A stretch of DNA of 38,895 bases from a virus, in the IMG/VR virus record IMGVR_UViG_3300028388_001251, positions 1 through 38,895 of that record; one strand, given 5' to 3'. The first letter of the stretch is position 1; each line of letters begins with the position of its first letter. Position numbers and translations under genes: made by a program. This document shows, in pieces, positions 33 through 29,375 of the stretch. The notes under the pieces are model-generated. The model was not told the DNA's origin. It did not search any database and worked only from the letters and a program-made list of their open reading frames with translations.

Positions 33-533
33 TGTGAAAGCGCGTTTGAGCCCCGACGGAGGGTAAAATCGCGCAAATCGCTAGACAAAATTGCTGCGCG
101 TAGTACCACTAGACAAAATTAGGGGTCAATTTTGTCTAGCCTCCGCCGTTGATTTATAAGGAGTTTTTTTTGAGCTAGACAAAAATCGCGATTTTTCGAG
201 GGTAGGTAAACATTTTTTTATACGCCGGTGTGGCCCCTCACCCCTCCGACAGACAAAAGAAAAAAGGCCCGAAAAGTCTATCCATATCGTTTGTCTAGTC
301 TAAAAAAAAGGAAAAACGCCCAGCTTCTCCCAGCAAATCAACAACTTACGAGCTAGACATAACAATCTACATTAAAAAATTTTTGTCTAGTAAATTTGAA
401 AACTCCTTGCAAATCAATGACTTGGCGCTAGACAAAATTCTCGATTTCCAAATATTTTTGTCTAGTAGCCCCCCGTCGGCGTTTGTCTAGCTTTGTCTAG
501 CCTGTCGGCTTGGTAGTCCCGTTGTGAAAGCGC
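33..533. repeat. Direct repeat TGTGAAAGCGC flanking the iteron array
   Basis: The 11-mer TGTGAAAGCGC occurs at 33-43 and again at 523-533, near the two ends of the CTAGACAAAA array. The surrounding bases also agree partly (GCTGTGAAAGCGC against GTTGTGAAAGCGC). It may mark the borders of the control region or be a second protein-binding site. No function can be read from sequence alone. Confidence 0.4.
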
Positions 534-550
534 CCGGCTACTAGACAAAA
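81..550. repeat. Iteron array of CTAGACAAAA repeats, candidate replication origin or multi-site operator
   Basis: Eleven near-identical copies of CTAGACAAAA lie here. Plus-orientation copies start at 81, 109, 175, 428 and 541. Inverted copies (TTTTGTCTAG or one mismatch) end at 139, 298, 390, 465, 490 and 500. Two decayed copies lie near 250 and 353. The copies at 109-120 and 128-139 form a perfect inverted repeat with a 7-base centre. A longer unit (CTCC, GCAAATCAA, ACTT, GCTAGAC) is present at 327-358 and 403-433 and partly inverted at 148-164. The stretch is AT-rich and has no gene. Arrays like this bind initiators or repressors; which one applies here is inference. Confidence 0.7.
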
Positions 551-2519: not shown

Positions 2520-2538
2520 GCCCCGTTTGTGACGGGGC
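2520..2538 (+). other. GCCCCGT/ACGGGGC hairpin overlapping palindrome copy 3
   Basis: GCCCCGT (2520-2526) pairs with ACGGGGC (2532-2538) around a 5-base loop. It shares bases with the palindrome at 2526-2546, so only one of the two hairpins can form at a time. It has no T run, so it is not a simple terminator. The same arrangement recurs at 4869-4896 and 5734-5762. Confidence 0.55.
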
Positions 2539-2546
2539 GTCACAAA
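2526..2546. promoter_or_regulatory. Early-region palindrome, copy 3
   Basis: TTTGTGAC-GGGGC-GTCACAAA, perfect arms. It lies between the ATPase stop and the next gene, ending 39 bases before the ATG at 2586, and is followed by CTACTTAC (2558-2565) and AAGGAGG. Confidence 0.75.
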
Positions 2547-2585
2547 GCAACACCCATCTACTTACGCCCAAGGAGGGCATATCAC

Positions 2586-3473
2586 ATGGCACAAGTCAGC
2601 CACATCCACACCGCTCAGTCAGCCACTCACACCAGCCCGCTGCGCCGCAGCGCCATGCTCGTGAAGGTCAGCGTGACCAAGCCCACCACCAGTCGGGCGA
2701 ACAAACGTGTCCGTGACGAGGTCGCGCGTGACAAGTCAGCCGACAGCGACAGCGTGTCGGTGCACAACCGCATCCTGTCCAAGAGTTTTACGCAGCCCCT
2801 CGATCAGGTCTGCGCCAAGGCGCGTCAGCTCCTCAACGAACGTGCGCTGCCGTGGGACGACGACGGCTGGCGTGTGCTCAAGAAAACCGACTTCATGCAG
2901 CTGAAGCAGGACATTGCCGCTATCGAGCAGGAGCTGAAGAACGCCGTGATGGCCCAGCTCTCCAACTACCCCTACGAGGTACAGCGGGCGAAACAACGTT
3001 TGGGCTCCATGTTCGACCCGAAGCACTACCCATCCACCGGAGAGATTCTCTCCAAGTACAGCATCACGCTGCGGCACCAGCCGTTCCCGGACGCGGAGGA
3101 CTACAGGGCCGACGTGGCAGACAACGTCGGGGCGGCCATCGCTCAGCAGGCGCGGGACGAGTACGCCGCGCAGTACACCGAGGGGCTCAACGATGTCGTG
3201 GCCGAGTTCGGAAAGCTGGCTGCCGATGCCGTGGAGCGCCTCGAAGGTGGGCGACTCACGTCGGTGCTCGACAATCTGGTCAGCATGGGCAACAAGCTCG
3301 ACAGCTTGAACCTGACCGGCGACCCCAAGGTGACGCGCCTGTCTGCCGAGGCACGTCGGCGCCTGACCAGCATCACCGACCGTCCGGCGCTCGCAAAGGA
3401 CAAGACTCTGCGCAAAGCAGCAGCCGAGGACGTGAAGTCCCTGATCGACGACTTCTCTGACATGTGGGCGTAA
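2586..3473 (+). CDS. Unknown protein of the MoxR-VWA module
   Basis: This 295-residue protein is not recognised. It is charged and mostly helical. It has a basic N-terminus (about 20-55), a long helical stretch around the AIEQELKNAVMAQL segment, and a second helical half ending in DDFSDMWA. No catalytic motif, signal peptide or membrane segment is visible. I chose the ATG at 2586, nine bases after AAGGAGG; an in-frame GTG at 2529 lies inside the palindrome and is unlikely. Its place between a MoxR-type ATPase and its VWA partner suggests it is the third part of that complex, perhaps an adaptor. That is inference from position. Confidence 0.8.
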   Translation: MAQVSHIHTAQSATHTSPLRRSAMLVKVSVTKPTTSRANKRVRDEVARDKSADSDSVSVHNRILSKSFTQPLDQVCAKARQLLNERALPWDDDGWRVLKKTDFMQLKQDIAAIEQELKNAVMAQLSNYPYEVQRAKQRLGSMFDPKHYPSTGEILSKYSITLRHQPFPDAEDYRADVADNVGAAIAQQARDEYAAQYTEGLNDVVAEFGKLAADAVERLEGGRLTSVLDNLVSMGNKLDSLNLTGDPKVTRLSAEARRRLTSITDRPALAKDKTLRKAAAEDVKSLIDDFSDMWA

Positions 3474-3528: not shown

Positions 3529-4860
3529 ATGAAGTTCACACCCGCCGAGCCCACCTACGAGCAGCGCACCCAGATCAGCAAGGCGCTGGGCAGGCTCAGT
3601 CTGACCAACCGGTTCTACGCAGAGGTACTCGGGCGACTGCCCGTCTACTTCACCGAAGACGTAGGCACCGCCGGCACCGACGGCATAGCGTTCTACTTCT
3701 CTCCGAGTTTCATGGAGAGGTACGACATGACCTTGGAGCAGGCGATGTTCGTCATGGCCCACGAGGTCGAGCACGTGGTGCTTGAGCATCCTGCACGTCG
3801 GGGCAGCGCTGACCCGATGGACTACAACATCGCTGGCGACGAGCGCATCAACAACAACTTGTTCGCCGCAGGCATGAAAGGCCCGACCGACGAGAACGGC
3901 AAGTTCATGGGCTACGCAAGCTCCAAGTACGCCGACCAGTCATGGTCCACCGAGCTGATTTTTCGTGACCGCGAACAGAACAAGCCCACGCCTCCCCCTC
4001 CCCCGCCGGGAGGTGAGGGTGACTCCAGTGACGATGGTGGTGACCAAGGGCAAGGCCAAGGTGACGACGGCGCTGGGGATCAGTCCGGTACTACAGAGCC
4101 GGGCGGCCAGCCGACCACCATGCCCAACGGTGTGGAGGACATCTTCGCTGGTGACGTGATCCAGCCCACCGACGAGAACGGCAAGCCCCTGACCGGTGCC
4201 GACTTGGCTGAGGCGCACAACGCCGTCAAGGGAGCCATCCTGTCCGCGGCGGCGGCCACCCGTGCCATCGACCCCGGCCTGATCCCAGCGCATCTGCGCG
4301 GTCCACTGGCTGAGCTTGTCGAGCCCGAGGTCGACTGGGTGGAGGTCATGCGCCCCTACATGTCAGCCACAGCACAAGACGATGAGAGCTGGGACATGCT
4401 CGACCAGCGCATGATCTCCCGACGCATCGCCATGCCGAGGCTTCACTCGGTTCGCGCTGGCACCGTCGGCGTCATCGTCGACACGTCCGGGTCATGCCGT
4501 GCACACATCGGCCCATTCCTGTCCGAGCTGTGCGCTCTGGCGGCCGAGGTCGAGCCCGAGGGCATCCGTGTGATTTTCATCGACACCGAGGTCCAGCACG
4601 ACATCACGACCACGCCGGAGGACTTCGAGGCGGACCTGTCCGAGCTGATGGCCAACCCGCCCTACGGTGGCGGCACTGACCTGCGCCCGGCGTTCGACGT
4701 GCTGGCCGACGTCGACGATCTCGAGTGCGTCCTGTGCATGACCGACATGATGACGCCCTTCCCCGACGTCGACTATCTCCATGCCGATGACACGCTATTC
4801 CTCGACACCTACGGGCGCATCGACGCGCCCTTCGGCGAGAAGGTCCTCATCGGCCGATAG
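3529..4860 (+). CDS. Putative metallopeptidase and VWA-domain protein (DUF2201-like)
   Basis: A 443-residue two-domain protein. The N-terminal part has a zincin-like HEVEH motif (78-82), followed by HPARRG and an aspartate in the DYNIAGDERIN segment, the pattern of DUF2201-type putative metallopeptidases. A proline-, glycine- and aspartate-rich linker (about 150-190) leads to a VWA-like domain with a MIDAS motif DTSGS (318-322), a GGGTD loop and a later TDMM segment. VWA proteins of this kind pair with MoxR ATPases, and one is encoded 1 kb upstream. A likely role is protein complex remodelling or proteolysis early in infection; the substrate cannot be told. AGAGGT lies upstream of the ATG at 3529. 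Confidence 0.85.
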   Translation: MKFTPAEPTYEQRTQISKALGRLSLTNRFYAEVLGRLPVYFTEDVGTAGTDGIAFYFSPSFMERYDMTLEQAMFVMAHEVEHVVLEHPARRGSADPMDYNIAGDERINNNLFAAGMKGPTDENGKFMGYASSKYADQSWSTELIFRDREQNKPTPPPPPPGGEGDSSDDGGDQGQGQGDDGAGDQSGTTEPGGQPTTMPNGVEDIFAGDVIQPTDENGKPLTGADLAEAHNAVKGAILSAAAATRAIDPGLIPAHLRGPLAELVEPEVDWVEVMRPYMSATAQDDESWDMLDQRMISRRIAMPRLHSVRAGTVGVIVDTSGSCRAHIGPFLSELCALAAEVEPEGIRVIFIDTEVQHDITTTPEDFEADLSELMANPPYGGGTDLRPAFDVLADVDDLECVLCMTDMMTPFPDVDYLHADDTLFLDTYGRIDAPFGEKVLIGR

Positions 4861-9648: not shown

Positions 9649-9932
9649 TGGGTAACTCCAATTTCATCATCGAAGATTCAAAGCCGCTACCACCAAAGCG
9701 CAAGCCGAAGTACCCCTTCGCTGCAATGGAGGTCGGCCAGTCGTTCCAGATACCCATCACGGACGCCGACGTGGAAGAGCATGGTGATGAGTCCACTGCA
9801 TTGGCCCGGGTGCGCAGTGCTGTTTCGTCCAGCGCCGCGGCGTTCAACCGTCAGGGTCTGGGCAGGAAGATCGTCGTACGAAAGACCGGCGAGCGCTCTC
9901 TGCGCTGCTGGTGTGTGCCGGCCGACTACTGA
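9648..9932 (+). CDS. Small conserved-type phage protein before the polymerase
   Basis: A 94-residue protein. A short polar N-terminus leads to the segment KYPFAAMEVGQSFQIP, then a helical stretch and a basic beta C-terminus (GRKIVVRKTGERSLRCWCV). Proteins of this shape occur near phage replication genes and may bind nucleic acid, judging by the basic C-terminus; that is inference. Start ATG 9648 overlaps the previous stop, and its own stop overlaps the polymerase start (TGATG). Confidence 0.65.
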   Translation: MGNSNFIIEDSKPLPPKRKPKYPFAAMEVGQSFQIPITDADVEEHGDESTALARVRSAVSSSAAAFNRQGLGRKIVVRKTGERSLRCWCVPADY

Positions 9933-12784
9933 TGGCATGGGAAGCGTTCGACGTCGAGACAGACGGCGAGCTGCGGGAGTACGCCCTGCAGCCGTGGCGA
10001 GTGAAGGACCGTCAAGCATGGCTGACCTCTTGGTCGGTGTCATCGAACGAAGGCAACCGGGTGACTTTCGCGCCGGAGCACCCTCGGGATACAGCCAACC
10101 TGTTGCGTCCTTTGGTAGAGCGTTGGCTCGACGAGAAGACCACCGTCTGCCTCTGGAACGGCGTGTTCGATGTGTCGTGGCTCTATGCCTATGGGTTCGC
10201 CGACTGGCTCACGCAGGTCAAGTGGCTCGACGGCATGCTGCTTTGGCGGCACATCGAGAACCAGCCGCAGTACGGGGTCGCCGCCGATAAGCGCACGTCG
10301 TTCGGGCTGAAGCGCGCCGTCGAACATTACCTGCCGCAGTACGCTGGCTATGAGGAAGGCGTTGATTTCAGTGGCAGCGACCCCCTGATGCTGCTGCACT
10401 ACAACGCGTGCGATACATGGTTCACCCGGGCGCTGACTCGTCACTTCTACCTCCAGCTGGAGAAAGAGCCCCGTCGGCTCAAGGCGGCGCTGATCGAGGC
10501 GCACAGCATCCCGCTGATAGCACGAACTGTTTACGAGGGGATGGAGATTGACCACGACGGTCTGGACTCCCTCGACGAGTACCTCCAGCAAACTGCCGCT
10601 GATCGGCTGGCCCAGCTGAAGCCTCATGGTGCCACTGACAAGGTGCTGGCATCGCCGAAGCAACTGTCGGAGCTGCTGTTCGAGGACTGGGGCCTGACCC
10701 CGCTCAAGCACGGCAAGACTGGCCCGAGTACCGACAAGGAAACGCTGGTTGAGCTGGCCCAGAAGGACGACCGGATGCTCCTGATCCACCAGTACCGTGA
10801 GGCCAAGGGCAACCACAAGAAGTTCTGCGTCAACGTGCGCGCCGCGGCTGAGTACAACAACGACGGTCGGGCACACCCCGAGGCCAAGGTGTTCGGCACG
10901 TACACTGGCCGGGTCACTTACGCGTCGGCGCAAGGCAGGAACAAGGATCGCCGGCAAACTGGTTGGGCGCTCCACCAGATGAAGCGTGACCCCGAGTACC
11001 GCCGACTGATCAAGGCCCCCAATGGCTACCAGATAGTGGAGCTGGATGCCGCAGGTCAGGAGTTCCGGTGGATGGCCGAGCTGTCCGGCGACCCGACAAT
11101 GCGAGCGCTGTGCCAGCCCGGCGAGGACCCTCACAGCTACATGGGTGCGCAGGTCGGCAACCTCGAGTACCGCGAAGTGCAGGAAGGCGCCGGCAAGGAC
11201 AAACACCTGAAGGCTATCCGACAGGTGGGCAAGGTGGCGAACCTGTGCGTCGCAGCAGATACGCTGGTGCTGACTGATCGAGGTTACACCCCAATCGTAG
11301 ATGTCACGCTGGCTGATCTGGTGTGGGACGGGGTTGAGTTTGTCCGACACGAGGGCGTTGTGTGCAGCGGTGTACGTCCGGTACTGCAGTATCGTGGCAT
11401 AATTGCTACGCCTGATCATCAGGTGTTGGTCAACGGACAATGGGTGAGCTTGGATGAAGCGGCAAGACATGGTTGGCAAATCGAATCCGCGCTGGGCACG
11501 GGATGGGCGTGTAAAGCGCGGGCAGTTGTTCGGATCATGGGAGGTGTTGTCCGACGAGCCGTTTCCGAAGCACGGAGCACTTTACGTTCTGGCTCGGTGC
11601 TCATGCTCGACCGAGCGGGAGGTGAGCCTGCGTTCTCTGGAGACAGGCAAGTCCAGTCAGTGCAAAAGCTGCGCTGTAAGGGGCAGGCACACCCGCACAG
11701 GACATCTGATCGTGAAGGATGCACGACTGAGGCGCCTGCAGAAGCGAACGAACGACTGGTTCCAGCGGTGCAACAACCCCAACTCTCAATCCTATCGCAA
11801 CTATGGGGCGCGTGGCATCGAGTGCCGTTTCGAGTCGGTCGCTGCTTGCGTGACCTATGTGTTGGAGAACTTACCCCACGACACCTATCTTGGCGTGGAC
11901 ATCGACAGGATCGACAACAACGGGCACTACGAACCCGGGAATCTGCGTCTGGTTTCTCGGGCGCAGAACCTGCGCAACACAAGGCGCACTACGCATGTGC
12001 TGTGGCGGGGCAGGCAAATACTTTTGCAGGACTGGGCGGAGAACCCCTACGCTCTGACCACAGCGGGGCGCTATGTCGCGCAGGGAATGACCGGCGAAGC
12101 GATTTTGCAGAAGGCTCGTCAGGCCGTGCAGGAGAAGCGCAAAGGCTGGACGCAGATTCAAGAACGGTTGAGCCAGTCTACGACATCGTAAACTGCGGCC
12201 CACGAACACGATTCGCAGCCAACGGAGTGATTGTCCACAACTCACTCCAGTTCCGCACCAGTGCGCCACGCCTGCTGTCGGCGGCGCGGGTCAACCACGG
12301 CATGATGGACATGACTCTGCCGAAGGCAACTCACATCCGCAACACCTACCTCCGGGCGTACCGGGGCGTGCCGGAGTATTGGCAGCGCCAGATCGCGTTC
12401 CTTACAGCCAACAACTATGTGAAAACGCTGGCAGGCAGGAAGGTGGTGGTTCCGCCCCGGCTGCAGTCAATGTTCGAGTGGTCGACGCAGTCTACGAGCA
12501 TCAACTTTCCTGTACAGGGCACCGGCGGCGATCAGAAGTACCTAGCCATGTCGGTCATCCGACCACTGCTGCTGCAGCTCGATGCGATCTTCCTGTTCGA
12601 CCTTCACGACGGCCTGTACTTCCTCGTCCCTGACGCTGCGGTCGACGAGTTCATCACGAAAGCCAAGTACCTGTTCGACAACCTGCCCTACGAAAAAGCG
12701 TGGGGCATCATCCCGAGTATCCCACTTCCGTGGGACGTAAAGGTAGGCCCCACTTGGGGCACTATGGAGGAGCTGGACCTATGA
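9932..12784 (+). CDS. Family A DNA polymerase interrupted by an intein
   Basis: Replicative DNA polymerase of the Pol I family, 950 residues as translated and 618 after removal of the 332-residue intein. The 3'-5' exonuclease domain is complete: D7-V-E9, D80 and Y157-N-A-C-D161 (DEDDy). Polymerase motif A is D372-A-A-G-Q-E-F-R379. Motif B reads R430, K434-V-A-N-L438, then the intein (439-770), then S771-L-Q-F. Motif C is H892-D893-G894, with glycine where most family members have glutamate. L438 aligns with E. coli Pol I Phe762, so this is a Leu762-type enzyme. No 5'-3' exonuclease domain. Activity should depend on protein splicing. The start overlaps the previous stop (TGATG). Forms the replication core with the primase-helicase at 18916. 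Confidence 0.93.
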   Translation: MAWEAFDVETDGELREYALQPWRVKDRQAWLTSWSVSSNEGNRVTFAPEHPRDTANLLRPLVERWLDEKTTVCLWNGVFDVSWLYAYGFADWLTQVKWLDGMLLWRHIENQPQYGVAADKRTSFGLKRAVEHYLPQYAGYEEGVDFSGSDPLMLLHYNACDTWFTRALTRHFYLQLEKEPRRLKAALIEAHSIPLIARTVYEGMEIDHDGLDSLDEYLQQTAADRLAQLKPHGATDKVLASPKQLSELLFEDWGLTPLKHGKTGPSTDKETLVELAQKDDRMLLIHQYREAKGNHKKFCVNVRAAAEYNNDGRAHPEAKVFGTYTGRVTYASAQGRNKDRRQTGWALHQMKRDPEYRRLIKAPNGYQIVELDAAGQEFRWMAELSGDPTMRALCQPGEDPHSYMGAQVGNLEYREVQEGAGKDKHLKAIRQVGKVANLCVAADTLVLTDRGYTPIVDVTLADLVWDGVEFVRHEGVVCSGVRPVLQYRGIIATPDHQVLVNGQWVSLDEAARHGWQIESALGTGWACKARAVVRIMGGVVRRAVSEARSTLRSGSVLMLDRAGGEPAFSGDRQVQSVQKLRCKGQAHPHRTSDREGCTTEAPAEANERLVPAVQQPQLSILSQLWGAWHRVPFRVGRCLRDLCVGELTPRHLSWRGHRQDRQQRALRTRESASGFSGAEPAQHKAHYACAVAGQANTFAGLGGEPLRSDHSGALCRAGNDRRSDFAEGSSGRAGEAQRLDADSRTVEPVYDIVNCGPRTRFAANGVIVHNSLQFRTSAPRLLSAARVNHGMMDMTLPKATHIRNTYLRAYRGVPEYWQRQIAFLTANNYVKTLAGRKVVVPPRLQSMFEWSTQSTSINFPVQGTGGDQKYLAMSVIRPLLLQLDAIFLFDLHDGLYFLVPDAAVDEFITKAKYLFDNLPYEKAWGIIPSIPLPWDVKVGPTWGTMEELDL
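11246..12241 (+). mobile_element. Intein in polymerase motif B, with a nested endonuclease gene
   Basis: The inserted 332 codons start with Cys (TGC 11246-11248) in CVAADTLVLTDRGYTPIVDV (block A), have a block B TPDHQVLV with its T and H, and end with block F/G VYDIV...ANGVIVHN, followed by extein Ser. All residues needed for splicing are present. The splice domains span only about the first 75 and last 27 residues. Between them the polymerase frame is open but reads as low-quality, R-, A- and G-rich sequence, because the true coding frame there is the HNH gene at 11454-12191, one base out of frame. The insertion falls just after the residue matching Pol I 762, a known intein hot spot in the catalytic centre. 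Confidence 0.9.
11454..12191 (+). CDS. HNH homing endonuclease nested out of frame in the intein
   Basis: A 245-residue protein in the +1 frame relative to the polymerase. It carries a treble-clef-like zinc site (C49, C51, C70, C73), the conserved RCNNPN...YRNYGARGI segment (105-121) typical of phage HNH homing endonucleases, an HNH core DIDRIDNNGHYEPGN (149-163) followed by a QN-x4-R helix, and a C-terminal NUMOD-like helix-turn-helix (LQDWAENPYALTTAGRY). It has its own ATG with a weak GGTGAG ahead and its own TAA, inside the codons for intein block F. The enzyme should cut intein-free polymerase genes and drive spread of the element. The shadow frame must stay open for the polymerase to be made. 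Confidence 0.88.
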   Translation: MKRQDMVGKSNPRWARDGRVKRGQLFGSWEVLSDEPFPKHGALYVLARCSCSTEREVSLRSLETGKSSQCKSCAVRGRHTRTGHLIVKDARLRRLQKRTNDWFQRCNNPNSQSYRNYGARGIECRFESVAACVTYVLENLPHDTYLGVDIDRIDNNGHYEPGNLRLVSRAQNLRNTRRTTHVLWRGRQILLQDWAENPYALTTAGRYVAQGMTGEAILQKARQAVQEKRKGWTQIQERLSQSTTS

Positions 12785-14440: not shown

Positions 14441-14669
14441 TTCCTCCGACGCCAAACGGAAAAGGGCTCGTCGGGCTGTAAACGCCGAGCGCAAGGCTAA
14501 GGGGTTGCCCCCGCTGAGGTCCGACCAGCATGTGGACCACAAGAAGCCCATAAGCAAGGGCGGGAGCAACGACCGCTCCAACCTGCGGATCACATCCGAG
14601 TCGAAGAACACGTCCTATGCACGCAACAAGGACGGCTCGATCAAAAAGAAGAGGAGCAAGAAAGGATGA
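14355..14669 (+). CDS. HNH endonuclease
   Basis: A 104-residue basic protein. The N-terminal half is lysine- and arginine-rich; the C-terminal half has the HNH core DQHVDHKKPISKGGSNDRSN (58-77) followed by LRITSESKNTSYARNK, with metal-binding His, the central Asn of SNDRSNL and a final Asn. Small HNH enzymes like this nick or cut DNA and serve in phage packaging, recombination or as mobile nucleases. It lies among replication genes, not next to a terminase. GGAGG precedes the ATG. Stop overlaps the next start. Confidence 0.82.
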   Translation: MPSSKNYKRDSKQEYKTAKARGENGTGSDSSDAKRKRARRAVNAERKAKGLPPLRSDQHVDHKKPISKGGSNDRSNLRITSESKNTSYARNKDGSIKKKRSKKG

Positions 14670-14941
14670 CCAAGAAACTGAGCTTCAGCGTGGCGCTTGA
14701 CCAAATCAAGCAGGGGCGCCGCATGGCACGTGAGGGCTGGAACGGCAAGGACATGTTCATCTTTCTCGTGCCGGGCAGCACCTTCGTCGTGAACCGCCCC
14801 CCGCTGTTGGGCATCTACCCCGAGGGCACCGAGATCAACTACCACTCGCACATCGACATGCGCACGGCGGACGGGCAGATCGTGCCGTGGGTCGCCAGCC
14901 AGACTGACCTGCTGGCCGATGACTGGGTGATCGCCTCATGA
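14666..14941 (+). CDS. Tad2-like anti-Thoeris protein (DUF2829)
   Basis: A 91-residue protein with the layout of the DUF2829 family, now called Tad2. It has a helical N-terminus FSVALDQIKQGRRMAREGWNG, the segment MFIFLVPGSTFVVNR, HIDMRTADGQIVPWVASQTD and the ending LLADDWVI. Tad2 proteins bind and sequester the cyclic ADP-ribose-type signal made by the bacterial Thoeris defence system, blocking it from activating its effector. That function is known for family members, inferred here. It overlaps the next gene's start (ATGA). Confidence 0.88.
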   Translation: MTKKLSFSVALDQIKQGRRMAREGWNGKDMFIFLVPGSTFVVNRPPLLGIYPEGTEINYHSHIDMRTADGQIVPWVASQTDLLADDWVIAS

Positions 14942-18915: not shown

Positions 18916-21825
18916 ATGGATACAATAAGTTTCCTGCGTCGGGTGTGGCCAGAGGACGGGTATTACTGCCTAGCTAAGCCGCACCCCGACGGGTACTTCA
19001 CGCATCGCTCATTTGGCTCCATCCAAGAAGCGCACGACGCGGCGCTCGCAATGGACTCGATGCAGTTCGATGTCTATTTCACAATCGCTGCTCTCAAGCA
19101 GCCCAAGGTTTTTGACCCGGCCAAGAACGATGGCAAGGGCGGGTACCGCTACCGCACCAAGGCAAACATAAGCTCCCTCAAGGCTGTCTTTTTCGAGGCC
19201 GACGTACTGCGCCCCGACGAGTTGGAAGAGGCGTCGGAAGCTGAGCTTGCGCGCAAGTACACATCCCGGGAAGAAGCTCTCAGTAGCACCAAGAAGTTCT
19301 GCGCACAGCTGGGGTGGCCCACGCCGACGGTTGTCTCATCAGGCTGGGGGTTTCACTTCTACTGGATGCTGGACACCGCCGTGGATCCGGCTGGGTACGA
19401 GGTACTGGTTCGCAAGCTCAAGCTGCTGGCCAAGCACTTCAAGTACAAGCTGGACCAGAGCGCCCTCGACATCTCCCGGGTGTTCCGCGTCCCCGGCACC
19501 CACAATTACAAAGTCGCCGACGACCCCCGGCCGGTGCGCATCCTGAAGGAAGGGTCGGCGAGAAGCTACGAGGAACTGCTTGCAGCGGTAGACCGCACGC
19601 TGGAGGAGCGCAACATCCACGTCGGAGACATCACTCCGCGTGAGCACCTGCCCGACTATCTCAACTATGGCGAGAGCAACGTCCTCGACGGCATGGAGCC
19701 CGCCAAGCTGCGGCCCATCCTCAAGGGCTGCGGTGCCATGCGCGAAGTGGTTGAGCGTCCCGACGAGGTTGCCTACCACACGTGGTACCGAACGCTGCAG
19801 GTGGTTCGTCACTGCAAAAACGGCGAGGACCTGATCCACAAAGTGTCGGCGCTGTCGAGCGACTACAGCGAAGAAGAAACCGACAAGATGATCCGCTCGC
19901 TGACGGAGAAAGACATCCCTCCGACGTTGTGCGACACCTTCGCCAAGGACAGCGACGCGTGCGCTGCGTGCCCTCACAGGCACAAGATACGGACGCCCGC
20001 TACCTTGGGCCGCCCCAAGTCCGACGTGCAGCAGCAGACCACTCTAGCGCTTCAGGCGGCTGTTGGTGCGATACCCCCGCCTCCGTTCCCTTACACCATC
20101 GACCCGGCGCAAGGCGTCTGGGAGCAGGTCAAGGACAAGGAGGACGTGATCGACATGCTGATCCTCCACTACCCCCTTCAGCCAGTAGGCCGGGCGGTCA
20201 GTGATTTCGAGGGCGGCGAGGACATGATGATCTGGGAGACAGCCACTCCCTGCGACGGGGTGCAGCGGGTCAAGATGCAGACCTCCACCCTGCTCAACCG
20301 CATGAAGTTCGTGGAAGTGCTAGGCAGCGCCGGCATCGTGCTGGAGCTGGACATGGTGCCTCGGGTGCAGAAGTACATGGCGCGGTACCAGAGGCTGGTG
20401 CAGCAGATGCTCCCCCGCCAGCTCGAGTACGTCCAGATGGGATGGGTCAAGGCCGGCGACAAGTTCATCCTCGACAACAGGGAGCTGAGTGTCACCGGCG
20501 AGAAGGACTGCCTCACCCAGAACCGGAACCGGGTAGTGCGGGCCGCGGTGTGTGAGGGCGACCTGAGCAAGTGGCAGGCTGCAGCCAATCACTTCATCAC
20601 TGAGGGCTTTGCGCCGCATTACTTCGCCCTGCTGGTCGGCTTCGCAGCGCCGCTGTTCCGGTTCACGAGCCAAGTCGGCGGGGTGGTGAACATGCTGGGC
20701 CGCTCCGGTGCGGGTAAGTCGACCATGCAGAAGGTGGTCAACTCGATCTGGGGCCATCCGACGCACCTGATGCTGCCGGCCGACAGCAAGTCGTCGACGT
20801 TCAACGCCAAGATCAGCGTGCTGAACATGATGAACAGTCTGCCGGTGTGCGCCGAGGAGATCACGCAGGCCAACCAGCAAGAGGTCGGCGATCTGGCGTT
20901 CACGGTCAGTCTGGGCATTGAGAAGCTCCGGGCCAATCGGGACGGCGAAGTGCGTGACGAGAAAGGCGGGTGGCGAACCATCATGCTCTCCAGCTCCAAC
21001 ACGTCGCTGATCGAGCTGGTCCATGGCTCCGCCGGGGGCGAGGCGAAGGCGTTCCGCATCTTCGAGTACGAGCTACCGTTCGTCGACGCTTACAGCCCTG
21101 CCTACTTCCGCACTGCGGTGGAGGACGTCATCACCGAGAACTATGGGGTGGCGGGCAAGCAGTACATCAAACACGTGCTAGCGAATCAGGACCGTGTGAA
21201 GGCGCTGGTCAAGACCAAGGTTACCGAAGCCGAGAGTCGATTCTCTCTCGACAAGGACGAGCGCATCTACGCGGCGATCATCGGCACTGTCTGCGCTGCG
21301 CAGCAACTCGTGTCAGAGAGCGGCGTGCTGGGTGTAGCCAATGGGCTGGAGAAGTTTATCGAGGGCGCGCTATCCAGACTGAGAGACTCGGCCGCGGAAG
21401 CTCGCACCAGCGCGATAGACATCCTTGGGGACTACCTCGCCGATAGCACCCGCAACATGCTGGTAATGGATGGCGACAAGACTGGCGAGTTCCCTATCCA
21501 AGAGCCGATGGGGGCGCTGAACATCCGGTACGAGAGGCACAGAGGAGAGATTGCGCTAAGCATCAAGCCTTTCAAGGACTACTGCCTAGAGCGCCACTTT
21601 CAGGGGGGGTACCAAGAGATACTGCGGGATTTGCGGAGTCTGAAAGTGATGAGGCCGGGGTACCACCGACGCACACTGGCCAAGGGAACAAAGCTGGCAG
21701 GGACGCAAAGTCGTGTGCTGCTGGTCGATGCCGAAGCATCCGCGTTCTCTGGTAGCTTGAAAGCTGTGGTCACCCAGATCGACATTTCAAACACGGACCC
21801 GCAATTTAACAGAGGAGAGAGGTGA
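18916..21825 (+). CDS. AEP-type primase and helicase fusion
   Basis: A 969-residue replication protein. The N-terminal part resembles archaeo-eukaryotic primases: FFEADV (E94, D96), SGWGFHFYW (H147), a later aspartate in LDIS (D185) and the RVPGTHNYK segment (191-199). A zinc-ribbon-like group C339, C349, C352 with nearby histidines follows. The C-terminal half is a P-loop helicase with GRSGAGKS (595-602), a Walker B-like CAEEI and a motif around IMLSSSN. It should prime and unwind DNA for the family A polymerase. Activity is inferred from motifs. ATG 18916 has GAGGT ahead and lies just after a terminator. Confidence 0.85.
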   Translation: MDTISFLRRVWPEDGYYCLAKPHPDGYFTHRSFGSIQEAHDAALAMDSMQFDVYFTIAALKQPKVFDPAKNDGKGGYRYRTKANISSLKAVFFEADVLRPDELEEASEAELARKYTSREEALSSTKKFCAQLGWPTPTVVSSGWGFHFYWMLDTAVDPAGYEVLVRKLKLLAKHFKYKLDQSALDISRVFRVPGTHNYKVADDPRPVRILKEGSARSYEELLAAVDRTLEERNIHVGDITPREHLPDYLNYGESNVLDGMEPAKLRPILKGCGAMREVVERPDEVAYHTWYRTLQVVRHCKNGEDLIHKVSALSSDYSEEETDKMIRSLTEKDIPPTLCDTFAKDSDACAACPHRHKIRTPATLGRPKSDVQQQTTLALQAAVGAIPPPPFPYTIDPAQGVWEQVKDKEDVIDMLILHYPLQPVGRAVSDFEGGEDMMIWETATPCDGVQRVKMQTSTLLNRMKFVEVLGSAGIVLELDMVPRVQKYMARYQRLVQQMLPRQLEYVQMGWVKAGDKFILDNRELSVTGEKDCLTQNRNRVVRAAVCEGDLSKWQAAANHFITEGFAPHYFALLVGFAAPLFRFTSQVGGVVNMLGRSGAGKSTMQKVVNSIWGHPTHLMLPADSKSSTFNAKISVLNMMNSLPVCAEEITQANQQEVGDLAFTVSLGIEKLRANRDGEVRDEKGGWRTIMLSSSNTSLIELVHGSAGGEAKAFRIFEYELPFVDAYSPAYFRTAVEDVITENYGVAGKQYIKHVLANQDRVKALVKTKVTEAESRFSLDKDERIYAAIIGTVCAAQQLVSESGVLGVANGLEKFIEGALSRLRDSAAEARTSAIDILGDYLADSTRNMLVMDGDKTGEFPIQEPMGALNIRYERHRGEIALSIKPFKDYCLERHFQGGYQEILRDLRSLKVMRPGYHRRTLAKGTKLAGTQSRVLLVDAEASAFSGSLKAVVTQIDISNTDPQFNRGER

Positions 21826-22698: not shown

Positions 22699-22726
22699 GG
22701 GGGCCTGCGTTACTGCGTAGGCCCCC
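22699..22726. terminator. Hairpin between convergent blocks
   Basis: GGGGGCCT (22699-22706) pairs with AGGCCCCC (22719-22726) around a 12-base loop. It lies seven bases after the last plus-strand stop and covers the last codons of the minus-strand 2221-aa gene. No T run on either side, so it may be a weak bidirectional terminator. Confidence 0.5.
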
Positions 22727-25700
22727 ACACATCAATTCCGTACATCTCTGCAAGCTCCGTCGTGAGATCGCGGTTCCGACTCGTCGTACTCATCCCGCCA
22801 ACAGATTTCCTCGCCTCCACGCGCTTCCTGCGCACGAACCTATACAGCTCCGAATACGCGCTTGGCCTCAAGCCTGCGTCACGTTGGTTCTGCTGTAGCT
22901 CTTTCCACTGATCCATCACATCAGCCTGACGGCGCACGTCGTTGGTCTGAGACGCCTCCCAATAAGCCCTCTTGAGCAGCGTGGCCTTGTTGCCACTCGC
23001 CATCTCAATCTTGTCCTTGTGAGTGCGCAGATCGTAGAACTCGCTCGTGCGCGTCGGCGTGAAGCCGATCTTCTTGAGAGACAGCTCCATGTCCTCGAAC
23101 TTCTCCCGGGGGATCATGGTCAGCCGGCTGTCGTTGACGAGCCCCTCGCGGTCCATCAGCGATCCGATGATCAGGTTACGGATACCAAGCGGAGACAGGC
23201 TGGCTATGCCCTTCGCCAGATCGTGGTGCGAACCAGTGGTCTGGTAGTCACTCAGGTAGCCGACGCCCTTGGCCATATCCTGCGCCATAGAGACTGACGG
23301 CCCGAGCGACCCAACCACTATCTCGCTGACCATGTCCTGCGGCTCTCTCGACCGCACGTTGTAGATGCTGCCGAGCAACTGCTCCACGAAGTTGATGCCG
23401 ATCCGTCGGCTGACGTCGATGCCCAGCACGCCTCCGATCACCCCGCGAGTAGTGATGCTGGCCATGTCATGTCCGAGCACACGCACCAGTGTCGCCTCCG
23501 GCGTGACGTCCAGCGCCTTCGCCTCGTCATCGTCATCCCCTGCCTTGGCCATCATCGCCAGAGCGGTCGTGAGGAACGGCACAGATAGCGAGCCGGACAG
23601 GGCGGCCGACGAGCCCACCGTGTAGAGGAACGCCTTGCGCTGGTAGAGAGCCTTCTCGAACGTGACGTAGGTGTCGGGGTGCAGCTCGCTGTTGTATATC
23701 TGCTGCAAGAGATCGATCTGCTGGGGCGCCATCTCCAGCTCCGCCGAACGCTCCATGTACTTCGCAAGGTGCTCGCGCACCAGCGCAAGCTCGTTATCGG
23801 TCAGCCAGTTCTCACCGCTGAGCCAGCCGGAAATCTCCCTTGTGTTGACCGGGGCCTTCATCTTGGCCAGCAGGTCCGCGGGCAGCTTGATGCTATTCTC
23901 CTTGTCAGTGAACAGCTGGTACGCCGCATCACTCATTCGTGGCTTCTTCCAGCCCTCCGACGCGCTCGAGTAGAGAAGCTCTGCGGTGACGATGGCGATT
24001 TTTTTGAACTGCAGGATGTTCCGCAGCACCGGGCTACGGAAAGGCATCGACGCGTTGCCGTACGAGTAGTCACCGTGTGTCTTGTACGTGACGACCTCCG
24101 CGTAATCGATTGCCTTGCGCTTGATCTCTGCTTGCTTTTCCGTCTCAAACGACTTGAGGGGGCGGCCCCGGGTCAGCTTTTCGACGCGCAGGTTGTAGGC
24201 CGCCAGTGAGGCTGACATCCGGTTGATCAGTTCCACCGAGCGCGCCGCGTGGTACAGCTTGGCCATACCCCACTGCGTCTTCGACGATGCGATGCCCATC
24301 AGGAACGAACTGTTCTCCCCCAGCGACCCAAAGTCATGGCTCATGCCGACGTCGAGTACGTTCCTCTCCTGCAGGGTGGTGAACATCTCCCGCACATCGT
24401 CGGGGAACTCCTCGAAGGTAATCTCTTGTCGGCCCCTGCCCAGCTTCGTCTGGACGACCGGCTTCAGGGCAGCAAACGCTTTCGCCAGCTCCGAGTACGC
24501 ACTTGTCCCGAACTCTCCTGACATGTACGGCGCGGTCATCACCCACGACTGGGTAAGCTGGAGTATGTAGTAGCTGGGGTTGCTCAGCAGATACCAGAGA
24601 GACTGCACACCCATAGCGGTGCGCGCCGTCTCTTCGGCGAAGCCTTGACCATCATCGAACGGGTTGTCGAGCCGACGGACCAGCTCGTTGTACTGGCTGC
24701 CCACGCGGTCACGGTCGACCTTCGTGAACCTGCCGATCTCTTCACGCATCCGCTGCAGAGCAGTCAGTCGCTTGGGCGCGCTCTGGGCCGAAGCCAGTGC
24801 ATACCCGAAATGGCGCACGTGCTCGAGGGTGTTGTCGAGCACCTGACTGCGGACCACACCGCCGATGTTTTCCTTGCGGAGCCCGGTCGTGACCTCAGTG
24901 CTTTGGCTTCCCATGTCGGCGAGAACCTGACGCATCTGTGCACGCAGCGCATCACTGAGCTTTGCCGCCCGACCTGCGTTATCCGCACCGCGCTTTACCT
25001 CGGCCTCGAAGCTGACCAACAGTGCCTGCAACTGCTCTGCATCAAGCGTGGACTGTGCCGTACGCGCAATGTCTGGCTTCCAATCGCCGTAGCCCCACGC
25101 CGGGTCTTCCTCATACTGCTTCGCTGCAGCCATCGCTTCCGCGCGAGTCTTGTAGCGTGACGACTTGAAGTGCTGGTGGTCTTTCTCTAGCTGGCGCAGC
25201 TCTTTGGTGTAGACGCCTCCCCGACCGCCCTCGAACTCGAGAGCCTTCATCTCGACCTCACGGAAGTACGGGCTCTTGGCGATCACGGCGAACTCACCAA
25301 CTCGAGACTGAGGTACATAGGCGCCCTTCGCGTTGATGTTGTGCTGAGCCATGATGGCTTGGACAGATTTCGCATAGTCGGCGAACAGCGCCCCGGGGTC
25401 TGCCGTCTGCTCCTCAAGTATGAGGAACAACTGCTTCGCGTTCTCCAGCTTCATGTTCGTCCGGGCAGCCAAGACCTCAGCGGTAGTCTCGAACGTCATG
25501 CGCATCGCCGTTTTCTGGTCGGCGTCCAGCTGGTCCATCCTCCACGAGCTGATGTTCAGCTCCTTCGGGTTGACCGGCCGCGTCTCAAACTCCCACTCCG
25601 ACGGGGGGTCGTTCGGGTTTGCTATGAAGAACTCCACCGATTTCTCGAGAGCGTAGGGGACCTTGCTGTCCTCAGAGCTGGAGTAGTGGACCAGCGCGTC

Positions 25701-28700
25701 TGTCAGGCCGTCGCGCTGCGCCTGCGTCAGGTGGTGCAGAGACTCGCCCAGCGTGTTGTTCTTCTGCTGCCACGAGTTGGCGAGGTGCTGGGCTTCGGTG
25801 AACGCTTCGATGAGCATCCGGGTAGATGGCACCATCTTGGCCATGTCGCGCAGCATCGTCGTAGTGAAGCCCAGCGCGTTGTGCATGCGCACGCCAAGGT
25901 TCGTGGTAGTGCCGTTGATACGGTTTATGGCAGAAAGCTCAGGCTCGTTCGCCATGATGCTCTCCGTCGGCTGATTGGCCGGGCCGACCAGCCTTGACCG
26001 CACGTCGTCACTGAGCGACAGGTCGCCGTTGACTTTGCCTGCCATCACGAAGCCCTGCGCCGGCTTGATGTAGTCGCGGATGATTTGCGCATCGGTCAGT
26101 GTCTTGCCGGTGAGATCGGCCCAGAACGCACGGATCATGTTCAGGACACGGTCCAGCATGCCCTCGCTCTGCAGGGCCTCTGCCCTCGCTGCGAGGAACT
26201 CTTCCGCGGCCATCCGACGGTCATTCTTCTTGGACATGTCGAGCCCGTAACGCACGGCAAACTCAGTCACGTCCTTCGTGCGGCGCGCAGCAAGGTCATC
26301 GAGGATGGGCAGCAACTGGTTGCCGAACACAGACCGCAGGCCGAAGTGACCTACGACTTCGTGGTACAGGGTGGTGGCAACGTCCGTTGTGGTGCTGAGT
26401 TGCTCCCGCACGAGGAACACCTCACCCCGGTAGAACACACCCGCCGGCGACTGCCCCGTGCCATCGTCAGCCAACGCGTCGCGCACTGCCTGCGGCACAT
26501 CCTTGGAGTCGAGATTCTCAACCACCACGATGCCCGGCACGTTCTCCCACGTGCCGACCACTTCTTCAATGGTGTCCGCTACGGCGTCCCCATCCAGAGA
26601 ACTGAGTGGCTGGTCTGTAAGCCTAGCTCTGGGGTCAGCCGAGCTAGGTTGCCCGTCTGACCCTTCGGGCTTTTTTGGGGGCGGCCTCCGCGATGACTCG
26701 CGCCTTCGCAGCACCTCGTCTCTCACGCTCTGCTCGGCCATATCTGCCTCTGCGGCCGCCGCGTCGGCTTCGGCGTCTCTCATCTGCTTCAGCGCAGACT
26801 GCCTGATCCTCACCATCTGATCTCGTATCTTGGCGGGAGTGTCGCCGACCTTGCGGATGGGGCCGCGAGCCTTGGCCAAGACCTTCGCCAGAGATAGGTC
26901 GGGGTTCTCCCGCTGAATCACCCGCATCCTCGCGTACTGGTCCATGTAGGGCTCAAGCTGCTCCTCGACAGCCACTGCCAGCGCGGCACGCACCCGATCT
27001 GTAGCGGACTCAGTGCTGCTGCCGACGGTCGGGGCATCCAGCGAGCGCTTGGTCAGCGCCCTCACCTTGTTCAACGGCAGCTTGGCCAGCCGCGCCAACT
27101 GCTCCAGCGTGGCGGTGCCTGTGTTCATCGCCTCCTCGAGAGCCAGCAGCTGCTCGAAAGACTGGTTCCCCAGATTGTCCACAGCTCGCTCAGAGAACGC
27201 TTCAGCCAGCACACGGCGAGCGCCAACAGAACGGCGCAAGAGCGACACAGAAGCGTCGGCAGGGTCTCCGGCCGGCATCTCGCCCTCAATCCCAAGCTGG
27301 CGGGCTACAGGGCCTTCGGGCTGCGCTTCAGGTATCGCCGACGAGGGGGGTGGCTCGCCGCCGGGCTCTTGCAGGAGACTCATCTGCCCTTGCGGGTCTT
27401 CGACCACGCCCTCACGGATCAACCGCTCTTGCTCAGCCTCAGCAGTGGCGCGCCGCGTCTGCTCGGTAAGCTGATTGGCCAGAATCTCCGGCTCGATGTC
27501 GAGCTGCGCGTCGTTATTGGGGTTTGTGGCTGCAGGGATGTCGAGCGCTGGGTCAGTGAGCCGCGCCGCGAAAGGCTCACGCGCGACCCCGGCGGCCTGA
27601 CCACCGGCCTCCGCCAGCATGTCCAGCTGCCCACCCTGATCGTCGATGACGCCCTGATCGACCAGCTCCTGTGTCTCCATCTCGCGCGCAGCCCTAGCCT
27701 CGGCGTCTGCCCGGGCCTTCTCCCGCAGAGCATCGTTGGTGACCTTGCGTGCCGACTTGAGCGCCGCCAGCTGCATGGAGAGGTCTTTGCGCTCCGCGTC
27801 CCAGCGCGCGCGGCGGGTAACGTCGCCGTCCCCGACGATCTCAATGCGGCGGTTCAGCGTGTTCACCTGCGCCTCAACCTTGTCCACAGCCTTGTCCAGC
27901 AGCTTGGATGTCCACTTTGAGTTGAGGTTCGGCAGCTGTTTGGCCGGCAGGCCAGTGGCGATAGAAAGGATGCGCCGCGCCGAGTTGCGCACGTCGCTAT
28001 CCCCCGAATAGGTCATCGCGGAGAGCTTCTCGAACGTGTCATGCCACGAGTTTTGCTTCGCGCCCATGCGGGCCATGAACTTGCGGAGCCCGGCGCGGCC
28101 TCTAGGGATGCTCCCCAGATCAGCCATCGCTCGCTCGGTTGCGATTCTAGCCAACTCAGGGTCGGCGTTAACGCCCTCCCCGCCTGCAGCTACCTGCTCA
28201 GCCATAAACCGCGCGACGGTCTCGTACGCCTGCTGGTCGGCCTTGGGCACTGAGTTGCGCCGCGCCTCACGGTTTGCACGCCCTTGGTTCCCCGACGTGG
28301 CTTCGATCTCACCATCTACGGACCACCCGGTGCCCGGGGCGTCCCCATCATCTTCGTTGGCAGCGACGCGCGCTGTGTCGCTCATATCTTTCCGGTCAGA
28401 GCCGGGGGCGCGAGTGTCGCCGGGCGTTTGCCGGCCGCCTTTGGCGAGGCCCAGCGAGCCACCAGCTGCAGCGCCCATGATCGCGCCAATAGTGAACGCC
28501 TGCCCGACGCTCTCGTTCGGGGTGTTCGGGGTGCCGGCGTTGATCGCAGCTGTCTCAATCGCTTCCTGCGAGCCTTCCTCGAGGCCCTCGCCTGCAAGGC
28601 CGCGGAGCGTCGCACCTGTGCGCCCACCACTCCACTCTGCTGTCTCTCTGACCGCCGTGGAGCCTGCTTTCGCAGCTGCCTTGTTGGAGAAGTAGCGAGC

Positions 28701-29375
28701 CATGAATGATTCAGGGTCGAACTTGCCAGCGACGCGCGCGCCACCAAGGCCCAGCGCAGCTCCTGCCACACCAGCCGGGATGCCTAGCAGTCGAGCCGAG
28801 TAGTCGTCGGGGTTGTCCTTTGCGATCTGACCAGCCACATTACCGGCGATCACACCACCTTCTACCGCCGCGGCCCGCCCTGCCGCAGTCGGAAGCGCCC
28901 TAGACACCGCGCCAACCTTGCCCAGCGCTGATGCAGCCTTACCCACCGGCCCGATGCTACCGGCCGCCTCACCCAGAATGTTGGGTAGAAACGCGGGGTT
29001 CTGGGCTACAGCACCTAGCGTGCTGCCGACGTTCTCGCCGAAGCTCGCGTCGGAGTCCCACGCCCCCATGACATTCTCTCGGGCCTGCTGGGTTGTGGCG
29101 CTCTGGCTGTCCCGCAGAGTGTCCGAGATGCTGCCCAGCCCTTGGTAGAGCCCTCCAGCCAACCCGTCGTTCATATCAGCCCCGAACAGGGAGCTGAGGC
29201 CAACTACGCCTTGGGCAGTGTTAGCGACACCAACGCCGACGCTCTTGAGCGTATCGGAGATCGGGCTGTACCCTTCGTCATCACTGGTGGCGCCACTGCC
29301 GTACCCGCCGCCCGGGCGGGCGCCAGTGCCCAGCATCATCGGGCGGTAGGGGGTGTTCTCGTCAACTGGGGGCAT
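22710..29375 (-). CDS. Giant internal virion (polyvalent, PLxRFG-like) protein
   Basis: A 2221-residue protein, probably packaged in the head and injected with the DNA. The first 300 residues are rich in G and A with hydrophobic helices, suited to membrane insertion. A long helical and charged region follows. Around 1005-1014 is HEVVGHFGLR, a zincin-like motif seen in large polyvalent phage proteins. YVPQSRVGEF near 1340-1350 and the C-terminal part resemble PLxRFG-type proteins. Start: ATG 29375, six bases after a perfect AGGAGG; an upstream in-frame ATG at 29420 lacks such a site. It overlaps the previous gene by 14 bases. Role in ejection is inferred; enzyme activity is untested. Confidence 0.8.
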   Translation of the reverse strand: MPPVDENTPYRPMMLGTGARPGGGYGSGATSDDEGYSPISDTLKSVGVGVANTAQGVVGLSSLFGADMNDGLAGGLYQGLGSISDTLRDSQSATTQQARENVMGAWDSDASFGENVGSTLGAVAQNPAFLPNILGEAAGSIGPVGKAASALGKVGAVSRALPTAAGRAAAVEGGVIAGNVAGQIAKDNPDDYSARLLGIPAGVAGAALGLGGARVAGKFDPESFMARYFSNKAAAKAGSTAVRETAEWSGGRTGATLRGLAGEGLEEGSQEAIETAAINAGTPNTPNESVGQAFTIGAIMGAAAGGSLGLAKGGRQTPGDTRAPGSDRKDMSDTARVAANEDDGDAPGTGWSVDGEIEATSGNQGRANREARRNSVPKADQQAYETVARFMAEQVAAGGEGVNADPELARIATERAMADLGSIPRGRAGLRKFMARMGAKQNSWHDTFEKLSAMTYSGDSDVRNSARRILSIATGLPAKQLPNLNSKWTSKLLDKAVDKVEAQVNTLNRRIEIVGDGDVTRRARWDAERKDLSMQLAALKSARKVTNDALREKARADAEARAAREMETQELVDQGVIDDQGGQLDMLAEAGGQAAGVAREPFAARLTDPALDIPAATNPNNDAQLDIEPEILANQLTEQTRRATAEAEQERLIREGVVEDPQGQMSLLQEPGGEPPPSSAIPEAQPEGPVARQLGIEGEMPAGDPADASVSLLRRSVGARRVLAEAFSERAVDNLGNQSFEQLLALEEAMNTGTATLEQLARLAKLPLNKVRALTKRSLDAPTVGSSTESATDRVRAALAVAVEEQLEPYMDQYARMRVIQRENPDLSLAKVLAKARGPIRKVGDTPAKIRDQMVRIRQSALKQMRDAEADAAAAEADMAEQSVRDEVLRRRESSRRPPPKKPEGSDGQPSSADPRARLTDQPLSSLDGDAVADTIEEVVGTWENVPGIVVVENLDSKDVPQAVRDALADDGTGQSPAGVFYRGEVFLVREQLSTTTDVATTLYHEVVGHFGLRSVFGNQLLPILDDLAARRTKDVTEFAVRYGLDMSKKNDRRMAAEEFLAARAEALQSEGMLDRVLNMIRAFWADLTGKTLTDAQIIRDYIKPAQGFVMAGKVNGDLSLSDDVRSRLVGPANQPTESIMANEPELSAINRINGTTTNLGVRMHNALGFTTTMLRDMAKMVPSTRMLIEAFTEAQHLANSWQQKNNTLGESLHHLTQAQRDGLTDALVHYSSSEDSKVPYALEKSVEFFIANPNDPPSEWEFETRPVNPKELNISSWRMDQLDADQKTAMRMTFETTAEVLAARTNMKLENAKQLFLILEEQTADPGALFADYAKSVQAIMAQHNINAKGAYVPQSRVGEFAVIAKSPYFREVEMKALEFEGGRGGVYTKELRQLEKDHQHFKSSRYKTRAEAMAAAKQYEEDPAWGYGDWKPDIARTAQSTLDAEQLQALLVSFEAEVKRGADNAGRAAKLSDALRAQMRQVLADMGSQSTEVTTGLRKENIGGVVRSQVLDNTLEHVRHFGYALASAQSAPKRLTALQRMREEIGRFTKVDRDRVGSQYNELVRRLDNPFDDGQGFAEETARTAMGVQSLWYLLSNPSYYILQLTQSWVMTAPYMSGEFGTSAYSELAKAFAALKPVVQTKLGRGRQEITFEEFPDDVREMFTTLQERNVLDVGMSHDFGSLGENSSFLMGIASSKTQWGMAKLYHAARSVELINRMSASLAAYNLRVEKLTRGRPLKSFETEKQAEIKRKAIDYAEVVTYKTHGDYSYGNASMPFRSPVLRNILQFKKIAIVTAELLYSSASEGWKKPRMSDAAYQLFTDKENSIKLPADLLAKMKAPVNTREISGWLSGENWLTDNELALVREHLAKYMERSAELEMAPQQIDLLQQIYNSELHPDTYVTFEKALYQRKAFLYTVGSSAALSGSLSVPFLTTALAMMAKAGDDDDEAKALDVTPEATLVRVLGHDMASITTRGVIGGVLGIDVSRRIGINFVEQLLGSIYNVRSREPQDMVSEIVVGSLGPSVSMAQDMAKGVGYLSDYQTTGSHHDLAKGIASLSPLGIRNLIIGSLMDREGLVNDSRLTMIPREKFEDMELSLKKIGFTPTRTSEFYDLRTHKDKIEMASGNKATLLKRAYWEASQTNDVRRQADVMDQWKELQQNQRDAGLRPSAYSELYRFVRRKRVEARKSVGGMSTTSRNRDLTTELAEMYGIDVWGPTQ

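Follow-up and report, generated by a model that had tools for sequence, protein, structure and literature searches.

In phage P4, the alpha protein unites primase, helicase and origin binding, and the iterons of ori and crr are present in both orientations. The plasmid origins of pSC101 and R6K gamma combine initiator repeats with an AT-rich unwinding element and an IHF site, their repeats being mostly direct and phased and their function relying on host DnaA and helicase. In SaPIbov1 and SCCmec, short words within a gene-free, AT-rich block are paired with Rep and Cch, helicases with a C-terminal winged helix that follow the logic of a self-loading initiator, and the SaPI origin adjoins its rep gene. 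PMC7581432 relates the DUF927 protein Cch to SaPIbov1 Rep, an initiator of replication, and states that the C-terminal domain of SaPI Rep recognises its own iteron origin. PMC5043065 describes how, at established origins, iterons act together with IHF and an AT-rich unwinding element. Iteron origins and SaPI/SCC initiators are not new in themselves; the candidate origin described here differs from SaPI replicons in that a primase is fused on, the initiator gene lies at a distance, an IHF-type box is built in and the setting is a phage. Among the open-licence papers that our searches returned, we found none describing this origin. We infer, with a probability of roughly 0.78, that a repeat array at the left end of a viral record is an iteron replication origin that would be recognised by a fused primase-helicase with the help of host IHF.

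The window, that is, the whole stretch of DNA analysed, is an entire IMG/VR record of 38,895 bp that carries no end repeats. Judged by its proteins, the virus is a podovirus whose relatives include Rhizobium phage RHph_TM27A and Pseudomonas phage Rollin, both cultured, and, at a greater distance, HMO-2011: the portal shares 37% identity with that of RHph_TM27A and 25% with that of HMO-2011, and the primase-helicase is 27% identical over its full length to a Rollin protein. Since the genomes of RHph_TM27A, Rollin and HMO-2011 measure 55-61 kb, and since a search of the window recognised no terminase gene, the window is probably a fragment of a larger genome. Its rightward early genes encode a MoxR-type ATPase, a DUF2201 protein, a family-A polymerase, exonucleases, a helicase and the primase-helicase, and converge with leftward structural genes for the portal, the capsid and a 2236-aa inner protein.

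The array spans 81-550 and holds 12 exact copies of CTAGACA, six on each strand (10-mer starts at 81, 109, 175, 353, 428 and 541 on the plus strand and at 130, 289, 381, 456, 481 and 491 on the minus strand), with 11 exact copies of CTAGACAAA and 8 of CTAGACAAAA. A 13th, degenerate site (ACAGACAAAA) is located at 249 (+), and outside the array CTAGACA occurs a single time in 38,895 bp, at 28,900. The 11 copies of the 9-mer compare with a maximum of three in 2000 simulations of the array region under a first-order Markov model. Perfect inverted repeats of 15 bp (456-470/536-550), 14 bp (80-93/127-140) and 12 bp (109-120/128-139) are embedded in the array, as is a composite unit of ~66 bp that is duplicated at 327-392 and 403-467 with an offset of 75-76. 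Each composite copy comprises a AAATCAAYRACTT box of the IHF type, a gap of 3-4 bp, a CTAGACA word and, 28 bp further on, an inverted word; in the first copy the box AAATCAACAACTTA is followed by CTAGACATAA and an inverted CTAGACAAAA, in the second the box AAATCAATGACTTG by CTAGACAAAA and again an inverted CTAGACAAAA. The iterons are unevenly spaced and show no helical phasing. The AT-richest core, 351-400 (78% AT), is a candidate unwinding element. GC content is 0.417 over the whole array, near the 0.406 of the lowest 470-bp stretch, whereas the window has a median of 0.61 and the genome a value of 0.60. No open frame exceeds 63 aa in the array and Rfam returned no match; 45 bp beyond its end lies a perfect sigma-70 early promoter (TTGACA-17-TATAAT, 595-623, +). 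An earlier note on this DNA had described about eleven good copies in both orientations within 470 bases, perfect inverted repeats among them, a longer repeating composite unit and a gene-free position upstream of the early promoter, and our counts agree with it on all these points.

The promoter also introduces the main rival explanation, namely that the array is an operator or enhancer at which a phage or host regulator, together with IHF, represses or activates the promoter at 595-623, with no replication start there; such a function could coexist with an origin. IHF serves promoters as well as origins, and the array ends 45 bp before this one; the promoter, however, is already a perfect consensus, and together with the comparative evidence below this leads us to regard a purely regulatory role as unlikely. 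Between the promoter and the first clear gene runs a GC-rich leader of nearly 800 nt (624-1415), in which neither a convincing gene nor an Rfam match was found.

Since nothing near-identical to the window was found, with no near DNA match among phages, relatives were gathered through alignments of the ATPase and the primase-helicase. The motif search in relatives suggested by the earlier note yielded corresponding blocks in diverged genomes, although with a drifting word. These blocks are gene-free, AT-rich and upstream of early genes, with repeats in both orientations, and repeats, the box or both were recorded in L029, G001, G002, TM27A, Rollin, G010, G011, G012, G016 and L196. What persists is the gene-free position, the AT-richness, the mixed orientation and usually the box; what changes is the word (CTAGTCCAA, CTATCCAA and others), which is often coupled to the box AAGTCATTGATTT and an AT tract. 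The clearest relative block is that of L029 (ATPase 35% identical), where six variants of TAAGTCATTGAAAAC-6 nt-ACTAGTCCAA, the left three in forward and the right three in reverse orientation, are surrounded by palindromes and a promoter-like site; G002 shares this composite and adds CACTATCCAAAT. The word reads ACTATCCAAA in G001 and L034 and GTTGGATA in L032, and in G011 and G012 the words CACTATCCCACATATCCAAC and TGTCCACT, respectively, are inverted around an AT core. Rollin, G010 and G016 form a closer set with palindromic words of their own in 10 to 15 copies: 10 of AAAAGGTAG plus TAAGTGGTTGATTTTC..ATAGACAAAA in Rollin, 15 of ACGTATAC in G010, and 10 of ATTACCCA plus TAAGTGCTTGATTTCATTGGTACTAGACAAATAG in G016. 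Rollin and G016 retain one box, after which comes ATAGACAAAA or ACTAGACAAAT, and TM27A has two boxes within a 770-bp AT-rich gap; the blocks are situated at about 61.26-0.5 kb in Rollin and at about 19.36-20.12 kb in the TM27A record. The IHF-type box is absent from L030 and L032, and G018 (45.8 kb, helicase present) shows no clear array. Rollin's AAAAGGTAG is missing from 11 relatives, and two of these have different words, so the words are lineage-specific. In L041, five 56-bp tandem repeats (AAGGTCTAACCAAGAAGT...) were seen at 1729-1990, outside the origin-like block and about 1.5 kb before it.

The comparison bears directly on the rival explanations. For an operator or enhancer speak a gene beside the G001 array that reads, by eye, as an XRE-type regulator, and the palindromes at gene starts, which are dispersed sites used in this phage group. 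Against it, the distance between array and promoter varies among relatives (about 45 to 340 bp), the neighbourhood of the block contains no conserved gene for a dedicated binding protein, and the AT tract found in most of the relatives' blocks is left unexplained. Arrays of many sites in both orientations with IHF are also known from some centromeres and cos sites, and in L029 a few kb separate the array from late genes whose sizes approximate those of portal and terminase genes, so that a ParB-like or terminase-like protein might use the repeats for partition or DNA capture during packaging. Yet early genes intervene between the L029 array and the leftward late genes, no ParA/ParB-type partition genes were recognised among the scanned proteins of the window (a fragment lacking its left flank), and neither function needs an AT core, which makes a centromere or packaging site very improbable. 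The GC-skew check that the earlier note had proposed fits an origin in one respect, the cumulative minimum in G001, G002, TM27A and Rollin lying no more than about 3 kb from the block, but is confounded in another: these minima coincide with the divergence of early and late transcription, so replication and transcription are not separated by them.

We turn to the box. Two exact IHF-consensus sites, AATCAACAACTTA (336-348, +) and AATCAATGACTTG (412-424, +), each separated by 3-4 bp from a CTAGACA word, are predicted IHF-binding sites, and they are the only exact matches to the consensus WATCAANNNNTTR in the 38.9-kb window. Among 2000 simulated versions of the window block, none contained two such sites. 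When extended, the site at 412-424 gives AAGTCATTGATTT (minus strand), which is common to G001 and G002. Few exact matches occur in these GC-rich genomes, and most of those seen fall inside the block: 2/2 in the window, 1/1 each in the G002 and G001 loci and the Rollin stretch, and 1/2 in the L029 locus; in the whole records of other relatives, matches to the consensus occur outside the block too. The middle four bases of the box are often TGAC, a conservation beyond what IHF requires, and the box may therefore be part of the iteron or initiator site, instead of or besides being an IHF site. Relative to the iteron, the box of the window is inverted in orientation compared with the relatives. 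Short repeats in both orientations accompanied by IHF sites also resemble a lambda-type attP with its arm-type integrase sites; no PF00589 integrase, however, was present in the records of 12 relatives, most of them 49-65 kb long, or recognised in the window, itself a fragment, and we consider an attachment site scarcely credible.

The earlier note had envisaged a possibly new binding protein for the array, and the most likely candidate is the fused primase-helicase encoded at 18916-21825 (+, 969 aa), an AEP primase joined to a DUF927 helicase of the SaPIbov1 Rep/Cch type with a C-terminal winged helix, which we propose as the initiator. Residues 1-226 match AEP primases (cyanophage S-2L PrimPol, Z 17.8), and the model of residues 387-962 aligns with SCCmec Cch (Z 29.8) and SaPIbov1 Rep (Z 29.2). 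Profile matches to 8tch (SaPI Rep, E 8e-32) and 5dgk (Cch, E 9e-25) likewise identify the helicase as homologous to Rep and Cch. The winged helix (C-terminal domain, residues 805-969) is itself Rep/Cch-like: folded alone from 15 relatives, it matched best SaPIbov1 Rep (8tch, Z 9.9), Cch (5dgk, 9.3) and the pCW3 oriT-bound accessory protein (9.3), with the next match at 4.6. A Foldseek search with the isolated domain gave no E below 0.001, although the finer aligner did recover Rep and Cch. In the C-terminal region, G002 and L029, which both have the word CACTAGTCCAA, share 48% identity as against 38% for G001 and L029, whereas the helicase cores of both pairs are 54% identical. Sharing of the word may thus track C-terminal similarity in G002 and L029, a pattern in the sequences that is suggestive only.

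Set beside the known systems, the locus shares with SaPIbov1 and SCCmec the homologous helicase and winged helix, the short words in a gene-free AT-rich block and the logic of a self-loading initiator. It differs in that the helicase has an AEP primase as fusion partner, the array itself contains IHF-consensus sites, the words are of the CTAGACAAA type and the locus belongs to a podovirus rather than to a staphylococcal island. Moreover, unlike the SaPI origin, the array lies by the early promoter, 18 kb from the initiator gene. With P4 alpha it has in common the one-protein logic and the repeats in both orientations, but the two proteins are not known to belong to the same family, and we claim no homology. 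In contrast to pSC101 and R6K gamma, whose three components it resembles, the window combines unphased repeats in both orientations with a helicase of the phage's own. HMO-2011, CRP-1 and phiM6 have portal homologues (about 25% identity) and early and late genes on opposite strands, but primase and helicase are annotated as separate genes in HMO-2011 and CRP-1 and as a primase/helicase in phiM6, and none of the three is among the listed matches of the fused protein. In these three genomes (the first 50 kb of CRP-1), a mixed-orientation array of comparable density was not detected; the box test is uninformative there because the genomes are AT-rich.

The locus thus displays a repeat excess over chance, an AT-rich element, a block retained in relatives and accessory IHF-consensus matches, as expected of an iteron origin. 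These parts add up to a probable origin, with words that flank an AT core, a predicted architectural protein, an early promoter alongside and a putatively self-loading helicase-primase. Of the alternatives raised in the earlier note, replication is accordingly better supported than a repressor or partition complex, and position, architecture, AT tract, IHF-consensus sites and primase-helicase together mark the array as a probable origin. In the mechanism that we envisage, transcription from 595-623 would supply the replication genes, and the C-terminal winged helix of the primase-helicase would bind CTAGACAAA iterons on either side of the AT core. Host IHF would bend the DNA at 336-348 and 412-424, the core (about 351-400) would melt, helicase hexamers would load themselves, and the fused primase would prime. 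The phage family-A DNA polymerase (9911-12784, +), the proposed replicase, would then extend, probably bidirectionally. An insert of about 330 aa interrupts that polymerase, and a weak, sub-threshold match to an intein N-terminus was seen at the insert.

More tentatively, and at slightly less than even odds, the locus may exemplify a distinct origin class, that of a widespread group of podoviruses with almost no cultured members, in which a bipartite iteron (box TAAGTCATTGATTTC plus a CTAGACAAA/CTAGTCCAA/CTATCCAA word) is arranged around an AT core and recognised by a fusion of AEP primase and SaPI Rep-like helicase, winged helix and word drifting together between species. If true, phages known almost only from metagenomes would gain an origin, a likely initiator and a recognition word, and their replication would be linked to the SaPI/SCC initiator helicases. 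The relatives would moreover provide a natural series of word and winged-helix pairs from which a recognition code could be derived and tested. DNA sequence is sufficient to find the motif: an IMG/VR scan with the motif as sole query (box plus ACTA) returned ten contigs, among them L196, which is absent from the loci returned by protein searches. Downstream of its motif, L196 has, in the same order, homologues of three early genes that are consecutive in the window, namely the MoxR-type AAA+ ATPase (1416-2504, +), an unknown 314-aa protein (2529-3473, +) and the DUF2201 metallopeptidase/VWA-like protein (3529-4860, +); PHROGs label the third 'HNH endonuclease', without agreement from Pfam. L195 has a portal homologue, and L191, L192, L194 and L197-L200 showed no match to window proteins. 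The pattern AAGTCATTGA-N-ACTAGTC occurred in 26 contigs and clustered only in L161 (the contig of L029), L163 (that of G002) and L175, the remainder fitting chance expectation (about 50 by a rough estimate). Neither box nor palindromes were found in L222-L227, ATPase relatives in bacterial genomes. An inverted-pair pattern of CTAGACAAAA, also run against IMG/VR, was discarded, its two contigs (L009 and L010) having no resemblance to the window.

Several further features of the window were recorded. Seven palindromes of the form TTTGTGAC-N5-GTCACAAA are dispersed over the early region, at 714, 1188, 2526, 3483, 4876, 5742 and 7063, with a half site at 7-14; five are perfect, two have one mismatch, and five precede the start of an early gene by a few tens of bases. 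Among relatives there are corresponding sets in which sequence and loop drift (TGTGACACGTGTCACA 11 times in L029, 15 copies in L030, seven in L031, GTTACGCCGGCGTAAC 10 times in L035 and TTTGTTAC-N3-GTAACAAA five times in G002), and a dispersed operator and a hairpin promoter for a phage RNA polymerase are candidate readings of these elements. The 2236-aa protein (22710-29420, -) has PHROG matches to DarB-like antirestriction proteins and virion RNA polymerase, and a search of PDB sequences gave no match. An ARAGORN tRNA-Sec call at 37120-37213 (-) falls within a long ORF on the same strand and is probably a false positive. Finally, a Tad2-like (Thoeris anti-defence) protein is encoded at 14666-14941 (+) and is 78% identical to its G002 copy, which lies on the opposite strand; since the other proteins common to the two are far less alike, the gene was probably exchanged recently.
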